Source: Pseudomonas versuta
GTDB taxonomy: Bacteria; Pseudomonadota; Gammaproteobacteria; Pseudomonadales; Pseudomonadaceae
Length of the DNA stretch: 64,000 nucleotides
Direction: 5' to 3'
Assembly (NCBI RefSeq): GCF_001294575.1
Contig: NZ_CP012676.1
Location: 1,240,001-1,304,000, forward strand
Under the pieces are notes generated by a model. That model saw only the letters and a program-made list of their open reading frames with translations. It was not told where the DNA came from and made no database searches. Each line of letters begins with the position of its first letter. The stretch's first letter is position 1. Both the position numbers and the translations under genes were made by a program. Positions 22,629 through 34,952 of the stretch are shown one piece after another.

Positions 22629-23227
22629 CGGGAGATTTATTTGCATCATCCCGGGTGCCGGCCTACTCAGGTTTTCGACTATTGTTGATTCTGCCTTGGC
22701 CACTTCTCTTCATATAAGTACGCCGCTCCTGCAAGAGCTGAGCCGTGAGAGTCATGCGTGTGCCTGGCAATCTTCAAATCCCTTGGATGAGCTTCGTGTA
22801 GACCTGTGCTCAAAGACCCGTTAGTTACTTGAGTGATCATGGGGTATCACTGGTTAGCGTTATTCATCAAGTAGAAATTAGATGAGTCGCTGAAAATTTC
22901 GGAAGTTTCCTACATACAAATTCTTGTTAATAAAGATTCGGGATGTTTAGTGGTCTCTTATTATTTATTGTTTGTTTTTGGTGATCTGTACTGATTAGAA
23001 TCGCCCCCGAAATTTTCAATCATGCGATACACCTGTCCTTAGCTTTACCCGCAATTGCCTGATTGGTAATGGGCTTTTCTGTGTCCGATGCCGCGGGCCG
23101 TAAAACGGTTTGCAACGCAGCTGCGCCAGGCGCACGTCAATATCAAGTTTGATGCTATAGCCTGTGCGAACTCGCATTGGCTATTGAAGGGATGTCATTA
23201 GTGATCCGTGGCCAAGGAGGCCTGAAC
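22629..23227. other. AT-rich gap before vgrG with a 12-base inverted repeat
   Basis: No gene is seen in these 600 bases. The central part (about 22830-23020) is much richer in A and T than its surroundings. TGAAAATTTCGG at 22891-22902 is matched by its exact inverse CCGAAATTTTCA at 23007-23018, enclosing 104 bases. The region probably holds the vgrG promoter. AT-rich DNA of this type is a usual target of MvaT-like silencers, and the inverted repeat could equally be the ends of a small relic element. Confidence 0.5.
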
Positions 23228-25945
23228 ATGTCTACTCAACTGCGCACTTTTTTTGACCACAGCCGCCATAAACTGTGGGTACGTAATGTTACTTCGCTGC
23301 TCGACGTTCTCGCCTTCGAGGGCCGCGAAGGCCTGAGCCAGGTGTTCAACTACCGGATTGAATTCACTTGCACCGACACTGATATCGCGGCCGAGTCCAT
23401 GCTCGGCAAAGACGCCAGTTTCAGCCTCTACGCCCCCCTTAAACCGCTGCCTTATCGGGGTTTTGTCCGGCCCGAGATCAAGCCCTTGCGGGCATTGAAC
23501 GGGGTGATCAGCAGCTTCAGGCGCCTGTCCGGTTCACGCGACGAAGGCCGCTACGAAATCACCCTCGAACCCCGCCTGGCGCTGCTCGGTCGCGGCCGGC
23601 AGTTCCGGATCTACCAGCACCAGACGGTGCCGGAAATTGTCGAAAGCATCCTGCGCAGCCGTCACGACTTTCGCGGCCAGGATTTTTTCTTCAACCTGCT
23701 ATGGGAATACCCCAAGCGCCTGCAAGTGATGCAGTACGGCGAAAGCGACCTGGCCTTCATCACGCGGCTGCTGGCCGAGGTCGGCATCTGGTACCGCTTC
23801 ACCCGCGATGAGCGCCTGAACATCGACGTAGTGGAATTTCACGATCACCAGCGCTTCTACCAGTTCGGCGTCGAGGTCGACTACCTGCCGCCCTCGGGCA
23901 TGAGCAGCAGCGGCCACGACAGCGTCTGGGCCCTGCAATCGAGCCACCAGGTGGTGGAACGCCACGTCAACATCCGCGCCTATGACCCGCGCAACGTCCA
24001 CGCCCATCTCGACGGCGAACTCGACCAGACCCGTGGCGCCAGCGGCACCTACGGCGAGGCCTACCACTACGCCGAGCCCTACACCGAAATGGGCGACCGC
24101 TACGCCTATGACGACGACCTGCCAACCGAAAGCGGCTACTTCTACGCGCGCATTCGCCACGAACGCTACCTCAACAGCCGCACCGGCCTCAGCGGGGTCA
24201 GCAGCAGCGCGACCCTGGCCCCCGGCCAGGTACTGACCGTCAACGGCGGCCCGCCCCAGGCCTTCCTGCCGCGCATAGTCATCACCCGAGTCACCACCCG
24301 GGCCGCCCGCGACCGCAGCTTCGAAGTCAACTTTGAAGCCATGCCGTACTCGCAAACGGTGTGCTTTCGCCCGCCCCTTGAGACCAAACCCCAGATCGCC
24401 GGCACCGTTGCGGCGCGGGTCACCAGCCCGCAGCCACACGACCCCTACGCCCACATCGACCTTGAAGGGCGCTACAAGGTCAACTTCCTGTTCGACCGCG
24501 ACAGCTGGCAGCCGGGTGCAGAAAGCCTGTGGCTGCGCCTGGCCCGACCCTACGCCGGTGACACCCACGGCCTGCACCTGCCGCTGATCCCCGGCACCGA
24601 AGTGGCGGTGGCCTTCGAACAGGGCGACCCCGACCGGCCGTACATCGCCTGCGCGTTGCACGACAACGAGCACCCGGACCATGTGACGCTGGGTAAACGC
24701 GACTACACGCGCAACGTGCTGCGCACGCCAGCCAACAACAAGCTGCGCATGGAAGACCGGCGCGGGCAGGAGCACATCAAGCTCAGTACCGAGCACAGCG
24801 GCAAGAGCCAACTCAACCTTGGGCACCTGGTCGATGCGCAGAAGCAAAAACGCGGCGAAGGCTTTGAACTGCGCACCGATGGCCGGGGGGCGATTCGGGG
24901 TGGCAGCGGCATCTTTATCAGTGCCGACGCGCAGCCCAAAGCCCAGGGCCAGATGCTGGAAATGGATGCCGCCGTGAGCCGCTTGCAGCAGGCCGGCGAA
25001 CAACTGCAAAAACTCTCCAGCGATGCCGTGGCCAGCCACACCGACCCCGCAGACCTGCAGGCCCAACTGGACCTGCTGAAACAGGATCTACAACAGCTCA
25101 AGTCATCGGTGCTGCTGCTCAGCGTCCCCCAAGGCATCGCCCTCACCAGCGGCAAACACCTGCAACTGGCCGCGCAAAACAACCTGATGATCAACGCCGG
25201 TGCCGGCGCCGACATCAGCGTGGTCAAGCGCCTGTTTATGGGGGTGGGGCAGGGCCTGAGCCTGTTCGTGCGCAAGCTGGGGATCAAGCTGATCGCCAAT
25301 CAGGGGCCGGTGAGCATCCAGGCGCAGAACGACAAACTGCAACTGCTGGCGCGCCATGGGCTGGAGATCACCAGCACCGAAGATGAAATCCGCATCACGG
25401 CAAAAAAGAAAATCACCCTCAATGCCGGTGGCAGCTACATCACCCTCGACCAGAACCGCATCGAATCGGGCACGGCAGGCGACTACAACATCAAGTCGGC
25501 GCACTTCGAGTACAGCGGGCCGGCCAGCCTGACGGCCTCGCATCCGGAATATCCGCAGAGTCAGACCACACAAGCATTACGCCTCAGCGTGCCGCAATCG
25601 GCCAATGACTCTCGCCAAAACTGGGCCGGCATGCCCTACACACTCTACGCCGACGGTGCACGGCTCAAGCAGGGTGTGTTGGACAACAGCGGACATCTGC
25701 TGGTTGACCATCAGGTCGTAACCCGCAATTACCGGCTGGCCCTGAGCAACGGCGTGAGTTTCCAAATCCCGGTGCCCACCGATTACCGCAACCGCGAGCA
25801 AGCACTCCTGGCCAATAGCGGGATGCACAACCACCGCTCGCAGGCCGACACCGAGGTGAGCCAACCCTCATCCCACACGGATCACCGTGACCTCTACGCG
25901 GCACAGATGGATAGCTTTAACGACTCTCAAGGAAGAACCCCATGA
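23228..25945 (+). CDS. vgrG: VgrG (TssI) type VI secretion spike protein with C-terminal extension
   Basis: VgrG trimers form the puncturing tip of the type VI secretion tube. The 905-residue protein starts at 23228 behind a perfect AAGGAGG. It has the gp27/gp5-like core (FFDHSRHKLWVRNVTSLLDV; then VNFLFDRDSWQPGAESLWLR in the OB-fold). The DUF2345-type beta-helix runs over about residues 640-780. Residues about 790-905 form an extension with TLYADGARLKQGVLDNSGHL, which resembles transthyretin-like domains that dock effectors. Its stop overlaps the start of the phospholipase gene by four bases. No other T6SS structural genes are near, so it is an orphan vgrG island. Confidence 0.95.
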   Translation: MSTQLRTFFDHSRHKLWVRNVTSLLDVLAFEGREGLSQVFNYRIEFTCTDTDIAAESMLGKDASFSLYAPLKPLPYRGFVRPEIKPLRALNGVISSFRRLSGSRDEGRYEITLEPRLALLGRGRQFRIYQHQTVPEIVESILRSRHDFRGQDFFFNLLWEYPKRLQVMQYGESDLAFITRLLAEVGIWYRFTRDERLNIDVVEFHDHQRFYQFGVEVDYLPPSGMSSSGHDSVWALQSSHQVVERHVNIRAYDPRNVHAHLDGELDQTRGASGTYGEAYHYAEPYTEMGDRYAYDDDLPTESGYFYARIRHERYLNSRTGLSGVSSSATLAPGQVLTVNGGPPQAFLPRIVITRVTTRAARDRSFEVNFEAMPYSQTVCFRPPLETKPQIAGTVAARVTSPQPHDPYAHIDLEGRYKVNFLFDRDSWQPGAESLWLRLARPYAGDTHGLHLPLIPGTEVAVAFEQGDPDRPYIACALHDNEHPDHVTLGKRDYTRNVLRTPANNKLRMEDRRGQEHIKLSTEHSGKSQLNLGHLVDAQKQKRGEGFELRTDGRGAIRGGSGIFISADAQPKAQGQMLEMDAAVSRLQQAGEQLQKLSSDAVASHTDPADLQAQLDLLKQDLQQLKSSVLLLSVPQGIALTSGKHLQLAAQNNLMINAGAGADISVVKRLFMGVGQGLSLFVRKLGIKLIANQGPVSIQAQNDKLQLLARHGLEITSTEDEIRITAKKKITLNAGGSYITLDQNRIESGTAGDYNIKSAHFEYSGPASLTASHPEYPQSQTTQALRLSVPQSANDSRQNWAGMPYTLYADGARLKQGVLDNSGHLLVDHQVVTRNYRLALSNGVSFQIPVPTDYRNREQALLANSGMHNHRSQADTEVSQPSSHTDHRDLYAAQMDSFNDSQGRTP

Positions 25946-26478
25946 ACGATCCCGACATAGTGGTGCCGGTCGCACTCCAGCACACCAATGAAGCTGTCTG
26001 CAGTGCGCCCTGGTACGTGCAGAACACCGAATACCCCCCGGCAAAGGCCACCTATCAACCGCTGATCAACGGTGAGGAAGCCTTCAGGGCGGTGCACCTG
26101 GCTATCGCCAGCGCGACTACAACCATCGACATCATCTGCTGGGGGGTTCAGCCGTCGATGTATTTCATTCGCGATGGCAGTGCCCCGTGCATTGGCGAAC
26201 TGCTGATGAGCAAAGCCCAGGAAGGGGTCAGGGTACGGCTACTGGGCTGGGAGATGCCGTTCAACTCGGCGGGCGTTGCGGGCGAGGCCAACTTGCCCGG
26301 CAAGGGCACGATCCGGATCAAGGACCGGGCGTTGCAAAGCGCTACAGAGGATCAGTACGCCTATGACCATCAGTGGTTTGCCGACTGCGCGGTCCCGGAC
26401 AGCAAGGCCGCTGGGCGTGGTGCCGATGGCATGCCGGTGTTTGTCAGTCGCGGCTTCAGTTGGGACGAACGGGCCTAA
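25942..26478 (+). pseudogene. Phospholipase D effector (Tle5-like), N-terminal fragment before an internal stop
   Basis: The frame starts with ATG in the overlap ATGA with the vgrG stop and reads 178 residues to a TAA at 26476. It includes the beginning of the first phospholipase D domain (FRAVHLAIASATTTIDIICW). The same frame continues without shift past the stop with IAHQVKYSGLDPQ, exactly where homologous proteins run on. A single base change, for instance GAA to TAA, would explain it. This piece lacks both HKD catalytic motifs and cannot be active alone. Confidence 0.85.
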
Positions 26479-26490
26479 ATTGCCCATCAG

Positions 26491-27753
26491 GTGAAATACA
26501 GTGGCCTTGACCCGCAGATCAGCAGGCAGATGCGCAATACGCTGAGGTTTTCCGCGACCCACCATCAAAAGAGCGTTCTGGTTGATTACGGGCGGGTGGA
26601 TAGTGCCGTTGGCTTTGTCATGGGCCACAACATGCTGGGCGAGTACTGGGACACAGATCGGCATTCGGCGCTGAACCGTTCCGGGAACCACAAGCCGGCT
26701 CCGAACCTGGGCCCCCGTGGTGCTCAGCCCCGCCAGGATATTTCCGGCCAGGTCAGCGGGCCGATTCTGGAGCACCTGCACCACAATTTCGCCACAGCCT
26801 GGCGCAAGGAAACCGGTGAGGACCTGCTGGCTTTACGCCAGGCCAAACTGGTCGGGCCACAGCTGCAATGCACCCCCGGCGCGACCCGCCAGATCGCCCA
26901 GATTGTGCGTACCCAGCCGCAAGACGGCAAACGCGACATCGAAAGGATTTACCTGAAAGCGGTTAACAACGCGACGCAGTTCATCTACATCGAAAACCAG
27001 TACTTTCGCTGGCCGCCGTTGGCCGAGGCGATCAAGAAGGCCGCGCTGGAACAGACCGGCAATGGCCGCGATCCGGGCCTGCATGGCGCCTTGCACCTGT
27101 TCGTGGTCACCAACGCCACCACCGATGGCGTGGGCGCGGGCACCCTCAACACCCAGCGCATGCTGGAAAGCCTGGGGCGTGCCGAAACCATTCCCGAAGT
27201 GACCAAGTTACTGCTCATCAAACAGGCACAAAAAGATGCTCCGCCGCGTCCACAACCCGACTCGCGTGACCAGGCGGGGCAGAGGGAGCTGGCGCAATGG
27301 CAGACCGATCGCGATCAGGAAGCAAAAAAAATCGTGGACAGCACGCTGGTCTTGCAACCGATTCCCGGCCTCAAAGTCCACGTCTGCTCGCTGGTCGCAC
27401 CCGATTCACCGGCGGGTAAACCCTGGATGCCGGTGTACATCCATTCCAAGCTGATGATCGTCAATGACGTGTTCACCACCCACGGCTCGGCCAACATCAA
27501 CACCCGCAGCATGCAGGTGGACAGTGAGCTGAATATTGCCCATGAGTGGGTGAGTGTGACCCGGGCGTTGCGGCGCAGATTGTGGAATCTGCATACCAAT
27601 GGAATGGGGGCGCAGGATGATCCGGCGAAGGCGTTCAAGGCTTGGGAGGAGATCATCAAAAATAACAAAGATTCTCAATCAAGAAATTTGATGCCGACTG
27701 CTCCTCTTGTCGAGTTTTATTACGGTGAGAAGACCCTGAAGGACCTTGACTGA
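26491..27753 (+). pseudogene. Phospholipase D effector (Tle5-like), C-terminal fragment with both HKD motifs
   Basis: This is the continuation in the same frame, 420 codons from a GTG at 26491. Counted from the original start, it carries the first HKD motif at His208 (HQKSVLVD) and the second at His501 (HSKLMIVN). In the second motif Asn stands where the motif usually has Asp, followed by Asp, and then comes the conserved THGSANINTRSM. Tle5 enzymes cleave membrane phospholipids of rival cells after type VI delivery. The piece could only be made by re-initiation or stop read-through. It ends one base into the start of the lipoprotein gene. Confidence 0.85.
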
Positions 27754-28606
27754 TGCATCGATTCCTATTGCTGACAAGTCTGCTGCTGGCCGCCTGTGAC
27801 AGCCGCAGTGAATTTACTTATATGAAGAAGGACCCTCATGTGAAATCGCTCAGCGAGATCAAGGCCAATCTGGCGTTCACCTGCGTACACGAAAAAATAC
27901 CTGCGGCCACAGCCGAGTCTGAAGTTCTGTTTCAGTACGCGCGCTGGTTACAGAGAAACAACCAGCTAAAACAGGACCAAAGCGTCAATGCCGAGATCGA
28001 GCGGTTGTACCGGATTGCTGCCGAGAACGGCCATTACAAGGCCAATATCAACCTGCAGAACGGCACCATGCGTGGTCATTTCAAACTGCGGGGCGATGAG
28101 CATTTGCGCCTGAGCCAGCAACTGATCGATGCGGGTGTGGCGACGGGTTATTACTTTATTGGCATCTTCCTGAAGAACGGTTCTGCCGGGTTGCAGCAGG
28201 ACCCGGAAATGTCATTGCGTTATTTCGCAAGGCAGCCGACCAGGGCAGTGCCCTAGCCCAGCCTGACAGCAGGCTGCACTACCTAGGGCAACAGGAAGAC
28301 GTTGAACGCGCTGAACGCTATAAAACCATCTGGCGAATACTTGCCAATTACTCCTACGCCGATCCAAAAGTCCCTGAGATCAACGAAATCCTCCCTTTGC
28401 CACCGGCCAAGCTTCCTGCCTGGGACGCCAAGCTGCAATGGCTGGAAGCCCGGCTGGCCAATGTGCCGCCGAAAAAGCCCGGCGAAGCGCTTATCCAGCA
28501 GTTGGCCAAGGCCATGTTGCTAGAGCCAGCGACCGGCAGAGCCACGGCTGTTTCTTCCGCTCTTTTCAAAGCCAGCTACCCGCACCGACCTGTGCCAGCG
28601 GCTTAG
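27753..28606 (+). pseudogene. Probable Tle5 immunity lipoprotein (Sel1-like/DUF6396-like), frameshifted
   Basis: An ATG overlapping the phospholipase stop opens a lipoprotein (lipobox LLAAC, Cys at about residue 15), which suits a periplasmic protector against a phospholipase. The first frame stops at 28256 after 167 residues. The other frame, from about 28220, reads FRKAADQGSALAQ, the core of a Sel1-type repeat, and then the C-terminal part YLGQQEDVERAERYKTIW and LPPAKLPAWDAKLQWLEARL to a stop at 28606. The join between the Sel1 unit and the tail is abrupt, so part of the repeat region may also be deleted. Function as immunity is inferred from position and lipobox. Confidence 0.7.
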
Positions 28607-28862: not shown

Positions 28863-29663
28863 CTACAAATGCACTTCAACCGCCAACGGCAGGTGATCCG
28901 ATAAATGGGTCCACGGCTTGTTACCCAGGATGGTCGGGTTATGGCTGGTGGCATTGCGCAGGTAGATCCGGTCCAGTCGTAGCAGCGGCCAACGCGCGGG
29001 GTAGGTTCTGGCCAGCTTGCCGTGGTGGCGCTCAAAGACTTCGTGCAGATCGTCGCGCTGGGAAAGCATGGCATTGCCTTGCAATTTCCAGTCATTGAAG
29101 TCGCCGGCAATGATCACCGGATCGCCAGGCGGCAAGGACTTGAGCAATTGATTAAGCAGCACGATCTGCAACTGTCTGTGGCTTTCGAGCAGGCTCAAAT
29201 GGACGCATATGGCATGCACGTTCTCGTGCCCCGGGACCTCCAGCACGCAGTGCAGCAGGCCACGCCGTTCAGGGCCGGTGATGGAGACATCGAGGTTGCG
29301 GTACGACTTGATCGGGTACTTGGACAACACCGCGTTGCCGTGATGACCGTCGGGGTATACCGCATTGCGCCCGTAGGCGTAGTCGGTCCACATGCTGTCT
29401 GCAAGGAACTCGTATTGCGATACCTGCGGCCAGGCGTCGTAGCGCGATGCGTGCTTCTCATGTTCGCCCTGTACTTCTTGCAAAAACACCAGGTCGGCCG
29501 AGGTGCTGCGTACGGCTTCGCGCAGCTCGGGCAGGATGAAACGACGATTCAAAGCTGTGAACCCCTTGTGCATGTTGACCGTGAGCACCTTCATTCGGTG
29601 TACATCGGGCACGGCGACCGGCGCTGGCGAGTCTATGTTGTTGCCGACAATATCAAGGGTCAT
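28863..29663 (-). CDS. Endonuclease/exonuclease/phosphatase family protein
   Basis: The 266-residue protein has the EEP fold: LTVNMHKGFTALNRRF, VFLQEVQGEHE with the metal-binding Glu, VIIAGDFNDWKL with the Asp-x-Asn pair, and the final SDHLPLAVEV His. These metal-dependent hydrolases cut phosphodiester or phosphomonoester bonds, and bacterial members often sit next to phospholipid or cardiolipin synthase genes. Here it ends the glgX-led operon, 60 bases after the glycosyltransferase gene. No signal peptide is seen. The substrate is unknown; a sugar-phosphate or lipid-phosphate is possible in this context. Confidence 0.88.
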   Translation of the reverse strand: MTLDIVGNNIDSPAPVAVPDVHRMKVLTVNMHKGFTALNRRFILPELREAVRSTSADLVFLQEVQGEHEKHASRYDAWPQVSQYEFLADSMWTDYAYGRNAVYPDGHHGNAVLSKYPIKSYRNLDVSITGPERRGLLHCVLEVPGHENVHAICVHLSLLESHRQLQIVLLNQLLKSLPPGDPVIIAGDFNDWKLQGNAMLSQRDDLHEVFERHHGKLARTYPARWPLLRLDRIYLRNATSHNPTILGNKPWTHLSDHLPLAVEVHL

Positions 29664-29723
29664 GGTCTCTCCTGGTTGTCAGGGTCTGACTCGGTGCGAG
29701 CCTGGCCGTTCAACACAGGCTAT

Positions 29724-30425
29724 TTATAGCGCACCGGGTCGAGAGTCCGGTTGATGTTGATCAGGCCCAGGCCCGGCCAGCAGTGACTTCAAGTAATCAC
29801 CGAAGCCCCCTTTGGCGCGACAGTCCAGCCGGGCACTGGTGGTCACCCTGGGCCGATGGCTCCAGGCGATGGAGGCGCCACAGGCCTGGAACTGCTTCAC
29901 CAGATGCACATCTTCATGGCATGCCAGCGGCTGAAAACCACCGGCCTGGCGATAAGCCCGGGCGCTGAAACCCAGGTTGGCGCCATGAATGTGCCGATGC
30001 CCGTCCTGGCCCTGATAGGCCGCCAGGTAACGAGCCTGGGCGGGCGTATCGATCAGGGTGCCCCAGTCCTCGATCCGCACCGTACCGCACACGGCATCGG
30101 CATTGAGCGCCAGTTGCGCCACCAGCCAGTCATCGGCTACCAGGCTGTCTGCGTCGGTGCAGGAGATCCAGCGCGCCCCCTGGTCGAGCAACCACTGCGC
30201 ACCGGTGCCCCGGGCGATGCCGACATTGCGGGCCTTGATTGGCAGCACCTTGATGTCGTAGTTGGCGGCTATGTCTGCAGAATCATCGCTGCAACTGTCG
30301 AGTACCAGCGTCACCATGACGGCCTCACCGTTGAGCCCGGGGTGCCGGGCTGCCGCAAGTGCGGCTTGCAGGCATTGTGCGAGCAGGTCTTGCTCGTTGT
30401 GAGCAGGGATCAGAATGCCGATCAT
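29724..30425 (-). CDS. GT2-family glycosyltransferase
   Basis: The 233-residue GT-A fold protein begins MIGILIPAHNEQD. It has the nucleotide-binding segment LVLDSCSDDSADIA, a DxD-type motif in CTDADSLVADDW, and an acceptor-side motif CHEDVHLVKQF. It has no membrane helices, so it acts in the cytoplasm or at the membrane surface. It would transfer a sugar from an NDP- or polyprenyl-linked donor to an unknown acceptor. It overlaps the methyltransferase gene by four bases, showing tight co-translation with the acyl-CoA dehydrogenase, PIG-L and methyltransferase genes. Confidence 0.88.
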   Translation of the reverse strand: MIGILIPAHNEQDLLAQCLQAALAAARHPGLNGEAVMVTLVLDSCSDDSADIAANYDIKVLPIKARNVGIARGTGAQWLLDQGARWISCTDADSLVADDWLVAQLALNADAVCGTVRIEDWGTLIDTPAQARYLAAYQGQDGHRHIHGANLGFSARAYRQAGGFQPLACHEDVHLVKQFQACGASIAWSHRPRVTTSARLDCRAKGGFGDYLKSLLAGPGPDQHQPDSRPGAL

Positions 30426-31021
30426 CGCAGGCCCTCCTGGCTTGCCACTGACATAGGGTCGCGGCCCCAGACTTCAAGTACAAAATCATCTTCCAGGTGC
30501 TGCGCGAGCCGGCTCAGCCCCAGGCGGGCATGCAACAGGGCATGCACTTGATCCCCGGTCAGTGCGCAGCCCTCGATGGCCGGGCGCCAGTGACAGGCCA
30601 GGACCTGACCCTGTTCTGCAAGGCTGTCCACGACCCGCTCAATCATGCGCTGCAACTCGTTGGCATCCAGGTAGTAGCCCAGTTCACTGAGTACGATCAG
30701 GTCAAAGCTGCCACTGGCCCAGTCCGCCGGTAACCGGCTCTGACGCACTTCAACGTTCGGGCAATGGTTCAGGCGTTGCTGTGCCAGTTCGACCGCCCTG
30801 GCGGCCGCGTCGCAGCACAACAGGCGGTCAGTGCGCAGGGCCAGGCCGGCACTCAACTCGCCATTGGCACAGCCCAATTCATAGATCGACCCATAATGCT
30901 GACGCGGTAAGCTGGCCAGGGTCAGTGCGCGTTTGCGCTGTTCGTACCAGCGCTCGCGAAAAGCCCACGGGTCCGGGTTTTGCTCATACAGCTGATCAAA
31001 AAAAGCAGTGGAGACACTCAT
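30422..31021 (-). CDS. NodS-like SAM-dependent methyltransferase
   Basis: The 199-residue class I methyltransferase has motif I in IYELGCANGELSAGL, an acidic residue after strand 2 (LLCCDAAARAVELA), and motif IV in FDLIVLSELGYYLD. The start (FFDQLYEQNPDPWAFRERWY) is typical of the NodS-type group, whose rhizobial member N-methylates the deacetylated sugar of Nod factors. Neighbours include a PIG-L deacetylase and a glycosyltransferase, so an aminosugar or its lipid-linked form is a plausible substrate. That is inference. The start lies 3 bases after the deacetylase stop. Confidence 0.82.
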   Translation of the reverse strand: MSVSTAFFDQLYEQNPDPWAFRERWYEQRKRALTLASLPRQHYGSIYELGCANGELSAGLALRTDRLLCCDAAARAVELAQQRLNHCPNVEVRQSRLPADWASGSFDLIVLSELGYYLDANELQRMIERVVDSLAEQGQVLACHWRPAIEGCALTGDQVHALLHARLGLSRLAQHLEDDFVLEVWGRDPMSVASQEGLR

Positions 31022-31024
31022 GTT

Positions 31025-31789
31025 TCACTCCTGCACAAAGACTATTTCATAGGGGCGCAGCAGGCGCTCGAGTGCCAGGGCGGGCAAAATCGGGCCTGAC
31101 CCGGTACTCGGGTCTTCCTGCAACTGACTGGTAAACGCACTGGCCGCATAACGTTTACGGGCCATGGCGCTGGGGCTGAGGTTGATTTTGTGCGCACGGG
31201 CCCAGGGCACCCGTGCATCGTCATCGCGGGCCCAGTGCCAGGTCCAGATCGGCAGTTCATGCAAGGTGGCACCCACGGCTCTGGCGGCCGTGCTACTGGC
31301 GCGGCCGACCGCATCATGATCGCTGTGGCCATCCTCGCGCCACGTTGCAAACACCACATCGCCTGGGCGTAACTGCTGCTCGATAAACATTGCCACCGCG
31401 GCTTCGTGGGTGGCGACCTGACTGTCCTCAAACCCTGCGCGCAGCCATTGCCACTCCGGTAGCGCGAGCCCCAGGCGGCGCAGCGCTTCTTCGGACTCCT
31501 GAACCCGTAACGCGCCCAGCTGCTGCGCAGGCCATCGAGTTGACCCCGGGTGGCTGGCAGTGCCGTCGGTGACCGAGATCAGCAGCAATGAACGCCCGGA
31601 CGCGCCGATCATTTGCAGCAAGCCGCCGCTGCCCAATATTTCGTCATCCGGGTGTGGGGCAATAATCACGGCGCGGGCGCCTTCGGGCACAAGGTCCGAA
31701 AGCTGTATTTCCGGGAGCATGGCCAAGCGTTGAGAGTCGCTCCAGTGATCCAGCGATGTGCCGGCCCCTACGATCAGATTGGTTTTCAT
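31025..31789 (-). CDS. PIG-L (LmbE) family deacetylase
   Basis: The 254-residue zinc-dependent deacetylase has the metal motif IIAPHPDDEILGSG and the second His motif HSDHDAVGRA. Family members remove acetyl groups from N-acetylglucosaminyl compounds (PIG-L, MshB, BshB). The ATG at 31789 overlaps the acyl-CoA dehydrogenase stop as ATGA and has AGGTGG upstream; a GTG three codons earlier is possible. No signal peptide is present, so it acts on a cytoplasmic substrate. It is the clearest hint that the operon handles an N-acetylated sugar. Confidence 0.9.
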   Translation of the reverse strand: MKTNLIVGAGTSLDHWSDSQRLAMLPEIQLSDLVPEGARAVIIAPHPDDEILGSGGLLQMIGASGRSLLLISVTDGTASHPGSTRWPAQQLGALRVQESEEALRRLGLALPEWQWLRAGFEDSQVATHEAAVAMFIEQQLRPGDVVFATWREDGHSDHDAVGRASSTAARAVGATLHELPIWTWHWARDDDARVPWARAHKINLSPSAMARKRYAASAFTSQLQEDPSTGSGPILPALALERLLRPYEIVFVQE

Positions 31790-32787
31790 AGCGGCCACCT
31801 AGTGTCAGGTTGCAGCGCCGCCAGTTTGCCCAGCACTTGCAGATCGCGTTCGGCATGGCTCTGGCGCAGGTACACCGGCAGGTCGGCGCTGAGCTGTGCA
31901 AAGTGCGGATTCTTGCAATAAGGGCCCGCGCCAAGAGCACGGCCGACATGCTGAATCACCTGTTCGGCGCACGCTTCAATGTGCGCCCGGGCCTGGCGTG
32001 CCAGCCGTTGCGCATCGTCCCCGGGTGTTGCGTCCACCTGCTGCGCGCAGTCACGCAACACGCAGGTGGCGCTGTACAGTGCGGCATTAACGGCCCCCAG
32101 ATGGGCCAGCGCATGGGGCTCTTCGCGCTGGCTGCAGTGGTGTTGCAGGTAACTGGCCAGCCGGCTGGCTGCACCGTGCCAGCAGGCGGCGATGCCGATG
32201 GCGCCGTGCCAGAAACCGGGGCGTTGCAAGTAGTCGCCGGGGCCTCCGACACAGGTGGCGGGCGCTTGTTCAAAGGTCACCTCAACGCTGGCGGTGGCGC
32301 GCATGCCTACCGCTTCCCAGCCGTGCGATGCGACGCTGATCTGTGGCTGGTGCATGTCCACCGCCACCAGTTGCACCGCGCCTTGCTCATCCCGTGCGGT
32401 GAGCAAGCCATAACTGACCACCGCCGCGCCCGAACACCAGGCCTTGCGGCCGCTGAGGATGGCCTGGCCATCGGTCATATGCACATCGACCCGCGCATCC
32501 GGCGGTTCTGCGGCCCACAATCCCCAGGTGCTGCCTGGCGCAGGCCGGGCGGCGCCCAGTTCGTGGAGGGTGGCCAGGGCATCGGTATGGCCTTCATAAA
32601 GCTTGCACAGGCCCAAATCATGGGCGGCGACCAACCCCAGTCGCTGCCAGCGCTCCAGAGTCTGGCCGCTGCCCGGCATCGGCAGTTGATCGAGGCCGGC
32701 CTGCACCATGTGCCGCAGGCAATCGCCCAGCGCCTGAGGGGTATCCAGGCGCGGCGCGTTGATGTCAAAAAATGCGTGCAGATCCAT
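31786..32787 (-). CDS. Acyl-CoA dehydrogenase-like flavoprotein
   Basis: The 333-residue protein has the layout of the acyl-CoA dehydrogenase superfamily. It has a helical N-domain, a middle beta-domain with LSGRKAWCSGAAVVSYGLL and GWEAVGMRATASVEVTFEQA, and a helical C-domain. It is shorter than the usual 380-400 residues, and I cannot find the classical catalytic Glu segment with certainty. It may therefore act on a carrier- or sugar-bound substrate rather than in fatty acid oxidation. It starts 2 bases after the glgX stop, so it is translated with glgX, and it overlaps the PIG-L gene by four bases. Confidence 0.8.
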   Translation of the reverse strand: MDLHAFFDINAPRLDTPQALGDCLRHMVQAGLDQLPMPGSGQTLERWQRLGLVAAHDLGLCKLYEGHTDALATLHELGAARPAPGSTWGLWAAEPPDARVDVHMTDGQAILSGRKAWCSGAAVVSYGLLTARDEQGAVQLVAVDMHQPQISVASHGWEAVGMRATASVEVTFEQAPATCVGGPGDYLQRPGFWHGAIGIAACWHGAASRLASYLQHHCSQREEPHALAHLGAVNAALYSATCVLRDCAQQVDATPGDDAQRLARQARAHIEACAEQVIQHVGRALGAGPYCKNPHFAQLSADLPVYLRQSHAERDLQVLGKLAALQPDTRWPL

Positions 32788-32789
32788 GT

Positions 32790-34952
32790 TCAGGCACCTT
32801 GTTCACGCATCAGCTCGAACAGCGCCATCGAGCGTCCATTGACGCAGTAGGTGCTATTGAAAGCGAGGGCATCCTGGCCCTTGATATCCGGGTCGAAGGT
32901 GTCGAGTTTACAAATCCAGCCCGTACCCTCGGGGACTTCTGGCAGGGTGAAGTCGATCCCGTCGTGGTGTGCGTTGACGGCAATCAACAGCGTGGCGTCG
33001 GCCCCGGCCCGTTGTACCCCCGAGACCCGTGCCCGGCCGTCCAGCAGCATGCCCAGGCTGCGGCCATTGGCGTCTTCCCACTGCTCGATACTCATTTCAT
33101 TGCCATCGGGGGCAAGCCAGGTCACGTCCTTGACCCCAAGCTCTTCGTTGTAATGACCGACCAGAAACAGGTTGCGGCGCAGGATCGGGTAGCTCATGCG
33201 CAGTTTGATCAGGCGCTTGACGAACTTGAGCAGCGACTTGCCGTCTTCGTCCAGGTCCCAGTTGACCCAGCCAATCTCGCTGTCCTGGCAATAGGCGTTG
33301 TTATTGCCGTGCTGGGTACGGGCGAATTCGTCACCGGCCACGATCATCGGCGTGCCCTGAGCCAGCAGCAGGGTGGCAAAGAAATTGCGCATCTGGCGCA
33401 GGCGAAGGGTGTTGATTTCAGGATCGTCGGTAGGGCCTTCGGCGCCATGGTTCCAGGACAGGTTGTTGTTGCTGCCGTCCTGGTTGTTCTCGTCGTTGGC
33501 CTCGTTGTGCTTGTCGTTGTAGGACACCAGATCGTGCAGGGTAAAACCGTCGTGGGCGGTTATGAAGTTGACCGAGGCATAGGGCCTGCGTCCACGCTGG
33601 TCATACAGCTCGCCGGACGCGGTCATGCGCGCGGCGAAGTCGGCTAGCTGGCCTTCGTCGCCTTTCCAGAAGGCGCGCACGGTATCGCGAAACCGGTCGT
33701 TCCACTCTGCCCAGCCGGGCGGGAAACCGCCCACTTGATAACCTCCGGGGCCGCAGTCCCAAGGCTCGGCAATCATCTTCACCTGGCGCAGCAATGGGTC
33801 CTGACGGCAAGCCACCAGAAAGCTGTGCCGCTCGCTGAAGCCTTCGTGATAACGCCCCAGAATGGTCGCCAGATCGAAGCGGAAACCGTCCACGTGCATT
33901 TCCTGGGCCCAGTACCGCAAGGAGTCGGTGACCATCTGCAGCACGCAAGGGTGGCTCAGGTCCAGGGTATTGCCGGTGCCGGAATCGTTGATGTAGTAGC
34001 GATTGTCATCGGGCATCAGCCGGTAGTAGGAGGCGTTGTCGATCCCGCGCATCGATAAGGTGGGGCCCTGCTCATTGCCCTCGGCGGTGTGGTTGTAGAC
34101 CACGTCCAGAATCACTTCCAGCCCGGCCTCGTGCAGGTGGGCGACCATCTCCTTGAACTCGGCAATTTTGCCGCTGGCGAGGTAGCGCGGGTCGGGGGCA
34201 AAAAACGCAATGCTGTTGTAGCCCCAGTAGTTGGTCATGCCTTTTTGCAGCAAGTGCTGATCGTTGACGAAGGCGTGTACCGGCAGCAGTTCGACGCTGG
34301 TGACCCCCAGCTTGCGGATGTGCTCGATAACTTCGTCCACCATCAGCCCGGCAAAGGTGCCGCGTACCTCATCAGGCACCGCCGGATGACGCATGCTGAT
34401 CCCGCGCACGTGGGTTTCGTAGAAAATCGTACGGTCCCATGGCACTTGCACCCGATGGTCGTGGCCCCAGGTGTGGGCGGGGTCGATGACTTTGCATTTG
34501 GGTACAAAGGGCGCGCTGTCACGTTCGTCGAAACTCAGGTCGGCGTCGGGATGGCCAATGGTGTAGCCAAACAACGCTTCTGACCATTTCAGCTCGCCCA
34601 CCAGTTGCTTGGCATAGGGGTCGATCAGGAGTTTGTTGTGGTTGAAGCGATGGCCATTTTGCGGGTCGTACGGGCCATATACCCGGTAACCGTAGATTTG
34701 CCCCGGGTGCGCATCGGGCAAGTAGCCGTGGTAGGTCTCGTCGGTGTATTCGGGCAGTTCAATGCGTTCAAGTTCGACTTCGCCGGTGGGGTCGAACAGG
34801 CACAGTTCGACTTTGGTGGCGTTGGCCGAAAACAATGCAAAGTTGACACCCAGTCCGTCCCAGGTCGCGCCGAGCGGAAAGGGCAGGCCTTCACGAATAC
34901 GCGAGTGTTCGACATCCGGTGTAACAGGGGGGGCTGACTTGCGCTTGGTCAT
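32790..34952 (-). CDS. glgX: GlgX, glycogen debranching enzyme
   Basis: The enzyme hydrolyses alpha-1,6 branch points of alpha-glucan, preferring short limit-dextrin branches. The 720-residue cytoplasmic protein has an N-terminal CBM48 domain (PLGATWDGLGVNFALFSANA) and a GH13_11 barrel. The catalytic residues are Asp360 (GFRFDLATIL), Glu396 (MIAEPWDCGPGG) and Asp468 (ITAHDGFTLHD), at spacings like those of E. coli GlgX. AGGAG precedes the ATG at 34952. It is separated from the DUF2934 gene by 167 bases with a hairpin, and it heads a six-gene run (glgX, ACAD, PIG-L, methyltransferase, GT2, EEP) with overlaps or gaps of only a few bases for the first five genes. Confidence 0.96.
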   Translation of the reverse strand: MTKRKSAPPVTPDVEHSRIREGLPFPLGATWDGLGVNFALFSANATKVELCLFDPTGEVELERIELPEYTDETYHGYLPDAHPGQIYGYRVYGPYDPQNGHRFNHNKLLIDPYAKQLVGELKWSEALFGYTIGHPDADLSFDERDSAPFVPKCKVIDPAHTWGHDHRVQVPWDRTIFYETHVRGISMRHPAVPDEVRGTFAGLMVDEVIEHIRKLGVTSVELLPVHAFVNDQHLLQKGMTNYWGYNSIAFFAPDPRYLASGKIAEFKEMVAHLHEAGLEVILDVVYNHTAEGNEQGPTLSMRGIDNASYYRLMPDDNRYYINDSGTGNTLDLSHPCVLQMVTDSLRYWAQEMHVDGFRFDLATILGRYHEGFSERHSFLVACRQDPLLRQVKMIAEPWDCGPGGYQVGGFPPGWAEWNDRFRDTVRAFWKGDEGQLADFAARMTASGELYDQRGRRPYASVNFITAHDGFTLHDLVSYNDKHNEANDENNQDGSNNNLSWNHGAEGPTDDPEINTLRLRQMRNFFATLLLAQGTPMIVAGDEFARTQHGNNNAYCQDSEIGWVNWDLDEDGKSLLKFVKRLIKLRMSYPILRRNLFLVGHYNEELGVKDVTWLAPDGNEMSIEQWEDANGRSLGMLLDGRARVSGVQRAGADATLLIAVNAHHDGIDFTLPEVPEGTGWICKLDTFDPDIKGQDALAFNSTYCVNGRSMALFELMREQGA

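Follow-up and report, generated by a model that had tools for sequence, protein, structure and literature searches.

A widespread and mobile four-gene cassette found behind glgX in Pseudomonas probably builds a modified amino-sugar compound

Genes downstream of glgX in Pseudomonas versuta

Within the window (the whole stretch of 64,000 nt of Pseudomonas versuta DNA that was analysed), an ORF check recovered five genes behind glgX (32790..34952, TIGR02100 at 1086 bits), all of them, like glgX, on the minus strand. The first encodes a 333-aa flavoprotein with an ACAD fold (31786..32787; Pfam Acyl-CoA_dh_M, 36.1 bits against a cut-off of 33.3). It is followed by a PIG-L family de-N-acetylase (31025..31789; Pfam PIG-L, PF02585, 82.4 versus 28.2 bits), for which we took the ATG at 31789 as the start, giving 254 aa, instead of the listed GTG at 31798, by a NodS-like SAM methyltransferase of 199 aa (30422..31021; Pfam NodS, 53.8 versus 24 bits, and also Methyltransf) and by a short, soluble GT2 glycosyltransferase of 233 aa (29724..30425; Pfam Glycos_transf_2, 50 bits). 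The fifth gene encodes an EEP-family hydrolase (28863..29663; Pfam Exo_endo_phos). All five proteins scored above the cut-off of their own family, the flavoprotein narrowly.

The flavoprotein gene starts 2 bp behind glgX and overlaps the PIG-L gene by 4 bp (ATGA); the methyltransferase gene follows after 3 bp and overlaps the GT2 gene by another 4 bp, and 60 bp lie between the GT2 and EEP genes. Because of these gap sizes, the first four genes are tightly coupled and the EEP gene is outside that coupling. The coordinates, strand and tight joins given in an earlier note on this DNA were thus borne out, and its five-gene unit stood for four of the genes. Of the 80 named loci linked to glgX, 38 have the EEP gene, as do 4 of 40 whole-genome context loci, all four with glgX in the same stretch, and on these grounds, together with the 60-bp gap, we rejected it as a fifth member of the cassette.

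A gap of 167 bp precedes glgX on the side of glgA-treZ-malQ-treY, and for this reason transcription of glgX and the cassette together with those four genes is only a possibility. Between 28500 and 35400, no sigma-70-like site was detected and the six terminator-like sites correspond to the level of shuffled sequence (5.8). The glgA-treZ-malQ-treY-glgX trehalose/alpha-glucan operon that hosts the cassette in the window has been described in Pseudomonas, with genes named up to glgX only in the available parts of the two sources (PMC8084333, PMC8982409).

Distribution and neighbourhoods of the cassette

The conservation of the unit was followed in 60 loci chosen by the presence of the flavoprotein gene. 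Within 3 kb of this gene and on its strand, we found the methyltransferase in 58, the PIG-L enzyme in 52 and the GT2 enzyme in 47 loci, and all four genes on one strand within 3 kb in 43. The pairwise distance matrices of the cassette proteins co-vary (r 0.75-0.91), with permutation maxima of 0.34 or less. The cassette also occurs in Actinomycetota, in Cyanobacteriota and on plasmids. The four genes of the window (29724-32787) represent one copy of this conserved cassette, which has spread horizontally and is probably biosynthetic.

In the genus, the flavoprotein gene was present in 92 of the 149 congeneric genomes searched, and 64 of these 92 have its start no more than 3 kb from glgX, so that a chance neighbourhood with glgX, confined to one strain, was rejected. 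Carriers of the cassette include P. paraversuta, P. lundensis and P. fluorescens. The cassette is farther than 3 kb from glgX in the other 28, with ligD directly upstream in 19 of them. The coupling to alpha-glucan turnover proposed in the earlier note is therefore too narrow.

LigD, OtsA and catalase were searched for in 58 genomes: 30 from a phylum sample, all with the flavoprotein gene, plus the 28 of the genus in which this gene is not near glgX; most glgX-linked genomes lie outside this set. Among the 47 LigD-bearing genomes, ligD was upstream of the cassette, co-directional and within 3 kb in 20, against an expectation of 0.06. A catalase gene was within 10 kb of the cassette in at least 4 of the 58 genomes (G255, G143, G138 and G450) and the control family, aconitase, in at least one (G196), both among the matches listed. 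Of 42 TreS copies above the cut-off, two were within 15 kb of the cassette and none within 3 kb; copies below the cut-off were left out, and none of these was within 15 kb. Outside the genus, genes for trehalose, sucrose or glucan metabolism, catalase or NHEJ were found within 10 kb at 11 of 25 loci, compared with 2 of 40 control windows, none of which was drawn for plasmid records (p=2e-4). Individual arrangements include the same-strand runs otsA-cassette-otsB in two Comamonas and otsB-GH65-cassette in Legionella lytica, treZ preceding the cassette on the same strand in Paracoccus and, at locus L070, a sucrose-phosphate-synthase (SPS)-like gene in the same position and orientation. The common factor of these neighbourhoods looks like stress survival, trehalose being one part of it.

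Clustering of neighbours outside the glgX group yielded many antisense artefacts and, for the most part, families without an identity. L068, L083 and L090 share a family resembling ABC permeases (PF00528 in L083) in the vicinity of the cassette, a LacI regulator is located near it in L056, and three more glycosyltransferases are encoded upstream of it in Sphingobium and Novosphingobium.

No published description or product assignment of the cassette was found in the open-access literature searched. P. putida KT2440 presumably has the cassette beside ligD. Searches with guessed locus tags gave nothing for PSPTO_3131-3134 and, for PP_3256-3260, papers that were off-topic by title, one of which names PP_3260 as ligD. 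A term search in the available text of a study on trehalose and the general stress response of Bradyrhizobium (PMC8092242) returned no deacetylase or glycosyltransferase and a single mention of NodS.

Enzyme families of the four proteins

In the PIG-L protein the HPDDE and DGHxDH motifs are intact, and at the 80 named loci the first PIG-L copy has HPDDE without exception. Its nearest solved relatives are diacetylchitobiose deacetylases, then BshB1 and MshB, with which it has the family and the motifs in common. In Rubrobacter a PF01522 deacetylase occupies its place, a replacement that supports a putative de-N-acetylation step. The suggestion of the earlier note that these enzyme families suit the building of a modified amino sugar is supported for the four-gene unit. 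We think it very unlikely that the product is a thiol-like glycoside of low molecular weight, comparable to bacillithiol or mycothiol. Weak matches to BshB1 and MshB and catalase neighbours suggestive of redox stress would fit such a product, but the curated cut-offs were missed by far (BshB1 39.8 of 182.5, BshB2 23.2 of 195.25 and MshB 20 of 224.35 bits), and in the 18 plasmid records whose gene annotation was read, neither a cysteine ligase nor another companion thiol enzyme is named by the cassette.

The methyltransferase is 60% identical over 164 residues to the solved protein 4isc; NodS (3ofj) follows by profile and is the closest of the solved relatives whose function has a name. The enzyme passed the wider Pfam NodS cut-off and missed that of the NodS equivalog NF041650 (57.7 of 300 bits). 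The GT2 model (pLDDT 90.6) matched the fucosyltransferase WrtF first, with TarP, TarS and chondroitin polymerase close behind, and thus gave no answer on the donor sugar. No transmembrane-like stretch was found in any of the four cassette proteins (KD19 maximum of 1.12 for GT2).

Structure comparison recovered the ACAD fold of the flavoprotein. This fold is common to the group D flavin monooxygenases DszC, TdsC and MsuC and the nitrososynthases KijD3 and DnmZ, from which the cassette protein differs by an identity of 18-19% and a length of 333 instead of about 390-400 aa. TdsC gave the best sequence-profile match (49.6 bits), and EGH and CSG of the cassette protein align with GYH and CSG of TdsC, positions that we take to be those of DszC His92 and Ser163. 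DnmZ ranked high in Foldseek and was absent among the best 50 rows of VIA. Structure failed as an arbiter between monooxygenase and dehydrogenase, since TdsC and isovaleryl-CoA dehydrogenase were tied on Z in VIA; acyl-CoA dehydrogenases match as well as the group D enzymes do. The protein could be an ordinary acyl-CoA or acyl-ACP dehydrogenase and supply unsaturated acyl groups, for instance to an N-acyl sugar resembling a Nod factor, in keeping with its fold, the record names and the second-best profile matches (acyl-CoA dehydrogenase type 2). We judge this improbable in view of the TdsC match, of RQSH in sequence A1 where, in an alignment by eye, we presume the catalytic Glu of MCAD to be placed, and of the 18 plasmid records with annotated genes, in which no NodA-like acyltransferase is named by the cassette.

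A putative amino-sugar pathway and its relation to known systems

Taken together, the cassette is widespread, mobile and apparently undescribed, and, judged from its protein families, it probably builds a modified amino-sugar compound. The reading that we favour, and hold to be likely, is a cytosolic pathway, active together with stress functions, to an amino-sugar glycoside that is deacetylated, N-methylated and oxidised by a flavin enzyme. The soluble GT2 enzyme would provide an acceptor with an N-acetylhexosamine, probably GlcNAc, from which the PIG-L enzyme would strip the acetyl group; the methyltransferase would N-methylate the freed amine and the flavoprotein would carry out an oxidation, for which this nitrogen is a possible site, presumably in this order. 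As the gene neighbourhood suggests, this small glycoside may be made with trehalose, catalase or NHEJ functions under drying, osmotic or oxidative stress. A narrower version, to which we give little credence, has de-N-acetylation, N-methylation and flavin N-oxygenation act successively on one nitrogen of an amino sugar attached by GT2 to a non-reducing disaccharide, for instance trehalose or sucrose. The N-methyl-N-oxygenated glycoside would belong to a new class and could protect bacteria of several phyla against stress or trap radicals.

Tailoring of a surface glycolipid or LPS sugar, instead of a free cytosolic glycoside, is a less likely role that deserves consideration. Lipid-linked pathways and LPS pathways both use enzymes of the PIG-L and GT2 families, and the additional glycosyltransferases of Sphingobium and Novosphingobium would suit it; the lack of transmembrane-like stretches argues against it, as does, weakly because most neighbour families are without identity, the absence of an annotated flippase, polymerase or lipid carrier from the surroundings of the cassette in 18 plasmid records with annotated genes. 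There is very little to recommend a catabolic cassette that breaks down amino sugars or foreign glycosides, as a SAM methyltransferase together with a GT2 enzyme is unusual in a degradative path and the annotation of the same records shows neither a kinase nor a deaminase for amino sugars by the cassette. What speaks for it are the nearby permease and LacI genes, as in sugar-uptake loci, and the catabolic function of many group D oxygenases according to the available part of PMC5481743. The presence of the flavoprotein gene in 92 of the 149 congeneric genomes, the occurrence in other phyla and on plasmids and the company of trehalose, catalase and end-joining genes point to an overlooked stress metabolite, which would give bacterial desiccation tolerance another chemical component beside trehalose.

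In its make-up the cassette resembles the NodC, NodB and NodS genes for the head group of Nod factors, as it likewise combines a GT2 enzyme, a de-N-acetylase and a NodS-type methyltransferase; in Rubrobacter even the deacetylase is of PF01522, the family to which NodB belongs. However, NodC-type synthases are membrane-bound, whereas the cassette GT2 is short and soluble, and outside Rubrobacter the cassette has a PIG-L enzyme for NodB, together with an extra ACAD-fold flavoprotein and stress-type neighbours.

The genes behind glgX

Downstream of glgX (32790-34952, minus strand), the upstream neighbour of the cassette, transcription runs through an ACAD-fold flavoprotein, a PIG-L de-N-acetylase, a NodS-like methyltransferase (MT) and a GT2 glycosyltransferase (together 29724-32787, minus strand) to an EEP-family hydrolase (28863-29663, minus strand). 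The gaps from glgX to GT2 are, in order, 2, -4, 3 and -4 bp, confirming the tight joining of four genes to glgX described in the earlier note, and the EEP gene begins 60 bp beyond GT2. None of the five proteins scored above the cut-off of an NCBIfam model, and none contains transmembrane-like stretches. The EEP hydrolase had also been proposed as a fifth member, which was not borne out: the 80 named loci include 38 that have it, but it occurs in only 4/40 whole-genome context loci, these four all having glgX in the same stretch, and in locus L055 it lies behind glgX with the cassette oriented the opposite way. It is separate from the cassette.

On the plus strand (23177-28256), heading towards the EEP gene, are a VgrG-like T6SS gene and genes for a 178-aa, a PLD-family and a 167-aa protein, which look like a T6SS phospholipase module; the 178-aa and 167-aa proteins had no Pfam match. 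A second PIG-L domain of this genome (L002, G000:C1:4086801-4087307) lies in a 553-aa open frame apart from the cassette.

Conservation and spread of the cassette

Searches with ACAD gave matches in 92/149 genomes of the genus and 30/398 of the phylum sample. All 80 named genome loci contain glgX, ACAD, MT and a PIG-L, but as the closest matches these loci over-represent the glgX-linked group. In the gene-order survey around glgX suggested earlier, 64/92 congeneric genomes have the start of ACAD no more than 3 kb from glgX; it lies at 14-19 kb in four and is more distant or on a different contig in 24. The four genes stay together where glgX is not close by, and are a cassette rather than a tail of glgX.

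Among 60 loci picked by ACAD (40 whole-genome stretches and 20 plasmid records), all four genes lie within 3 kb on one strand in 43; individually, MT does so in 58, PIG-L in 52 and GT2 in 47 (49 counting either strand). The distance matrices of the cassette proteins are correlated (r 0.75-0.91, with permutation maxima no higher than 0.34), the PIG-L motifs are intact, and a PF01522 deacetylase replaces PIG-L in Rubrobacter. The cassette is carried by Kitasatospora and, in an unannotated record with the GT2-like gene on the opposite strand, by Nostoc; Deinococcus radiodurans has ACAD and PIG-L adjacent and MT 3.5 kb further, without GT2. In the plasmid collection 75/72,556 records match ACAD at E 1e-5, and the surroundings of 20 of the 75 were inspected.

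In L082 (genome G400) and L057 (G322) we found ACAD-MT-GT2 and no PIG-L close by, the predicted deacetylase being either absent or located elsewhere. The ACAD reading frame is broken in G476 (L086) and G448 (L087), and the protein matched only in part in G472, whose genome is spread over about 650 contigs; the cassette may be decaying in some strains. An extra PIG-L copy occurs in 53/80 named loci, in many behind GT2 (e.g. L052:11833-12738), with HPGDE in 53/54 extra copies versus HPDDE in 80/80 first copies. The changed residue is presumably the catalytic base, so the second PIG-L is probably an inactive or repurposed paralogue.

Stress-related neighbours

A single uniform sequence search (10 kb radius) for trehalose/sucrose/glucan, catalase or NHEJ genes gave hits at 11/25 Pseudomonadota loci outside the genus, 3/6 congeneric loci away from glgX and 11/20 plasmid records (12/20 counting the annotated otsB of record L184). 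The 11/25 compares with 2/40 control windows (Fisher p 2.2e-4), which came from 21 of the 25 genomes, included two overlapping by 1.5 kb and comprised no plasmid windows. Against this stand the 14/25 loci outside the genus without any such neighbour, and a single genus (g105) supplies five of the 25.

In 19/28 congeneric genomes without close glgX linkage, ligD lies upstream within 3 kb, co-directional. Together with G356 from another genus, this placement holds in 20 of the 47 LigD-bearing genomes (58 searched) against 0.06 expected, a Poisson figure that exaggerates independence because the 19 share ancestry. Ku and LigD genes flank the cassette in L085; PP_3260 is named as ligD in PMC8125075.

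OtsA lies within 3 kb of the cassette in 2/22 OtsA-bearing genomes (0.03 expected) and within 15 kb in 3/22 (0.15 expected). The gene order is otsA-ACAD-PIG-L-MT-GT2-otsB in two Comamonas, otsB-GH65-PIG-L-MT-GT2-ACAD in Legionella lytica and treZ-GT2-ACAD-PIG-L-MT in Paracoccus. In L070, MT-ACAD comes after genes for a protein that is SPS-like and has an S6PP domain, one that is weakly GT28-like and one that is GT2-like; sucrose-phosphate-synthase-like genes lie close to the cassette in L070 and L076, and sucrose may replace trehalose in some hosts. On an Acinetobacter ursingii plasmid, the cassette sits between catalase and otsAB, an arrangement resembling a mobile stress-survival block; 20 Acinetobacter plasmid records, L171 among them, match ACAD. 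ABC-permease-like genes recur beside the cassette in L068, L083 and L090 and a LacI regulator in L056, hinting at a tie to sugar transport in some hosts.

A putative amino-sugar glycoside

We lean towards a cytosolic, deacetylated, N-methylated and flavin-oxidised amino-sugar glycoside made alongside stress functions. GT2 would take GlcNAc as donor and a trehalose- or sucrose-type acceptor, deacetylation, N-methylation and flavin oxidation would follow in that order, the sugar nitrogen may be what is oxidised, and stress would induce the cassette. An N-oxygenated disaccharide as the product seems unlikely.

Full-text searches of open-access literature, in which subscription papers are few, gave among the papers listed none that describes this gene set in its title or at the start of its abstract. 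The trehalose/alpha-glucan papers PMC8084333 and PMC8982409 name the genes up to glgX, PMC5481743 and PMC10696468 treat flavin monooxygenases, and PMC8092242 treats trehalose under the general stress response of Bradyrhizobium.
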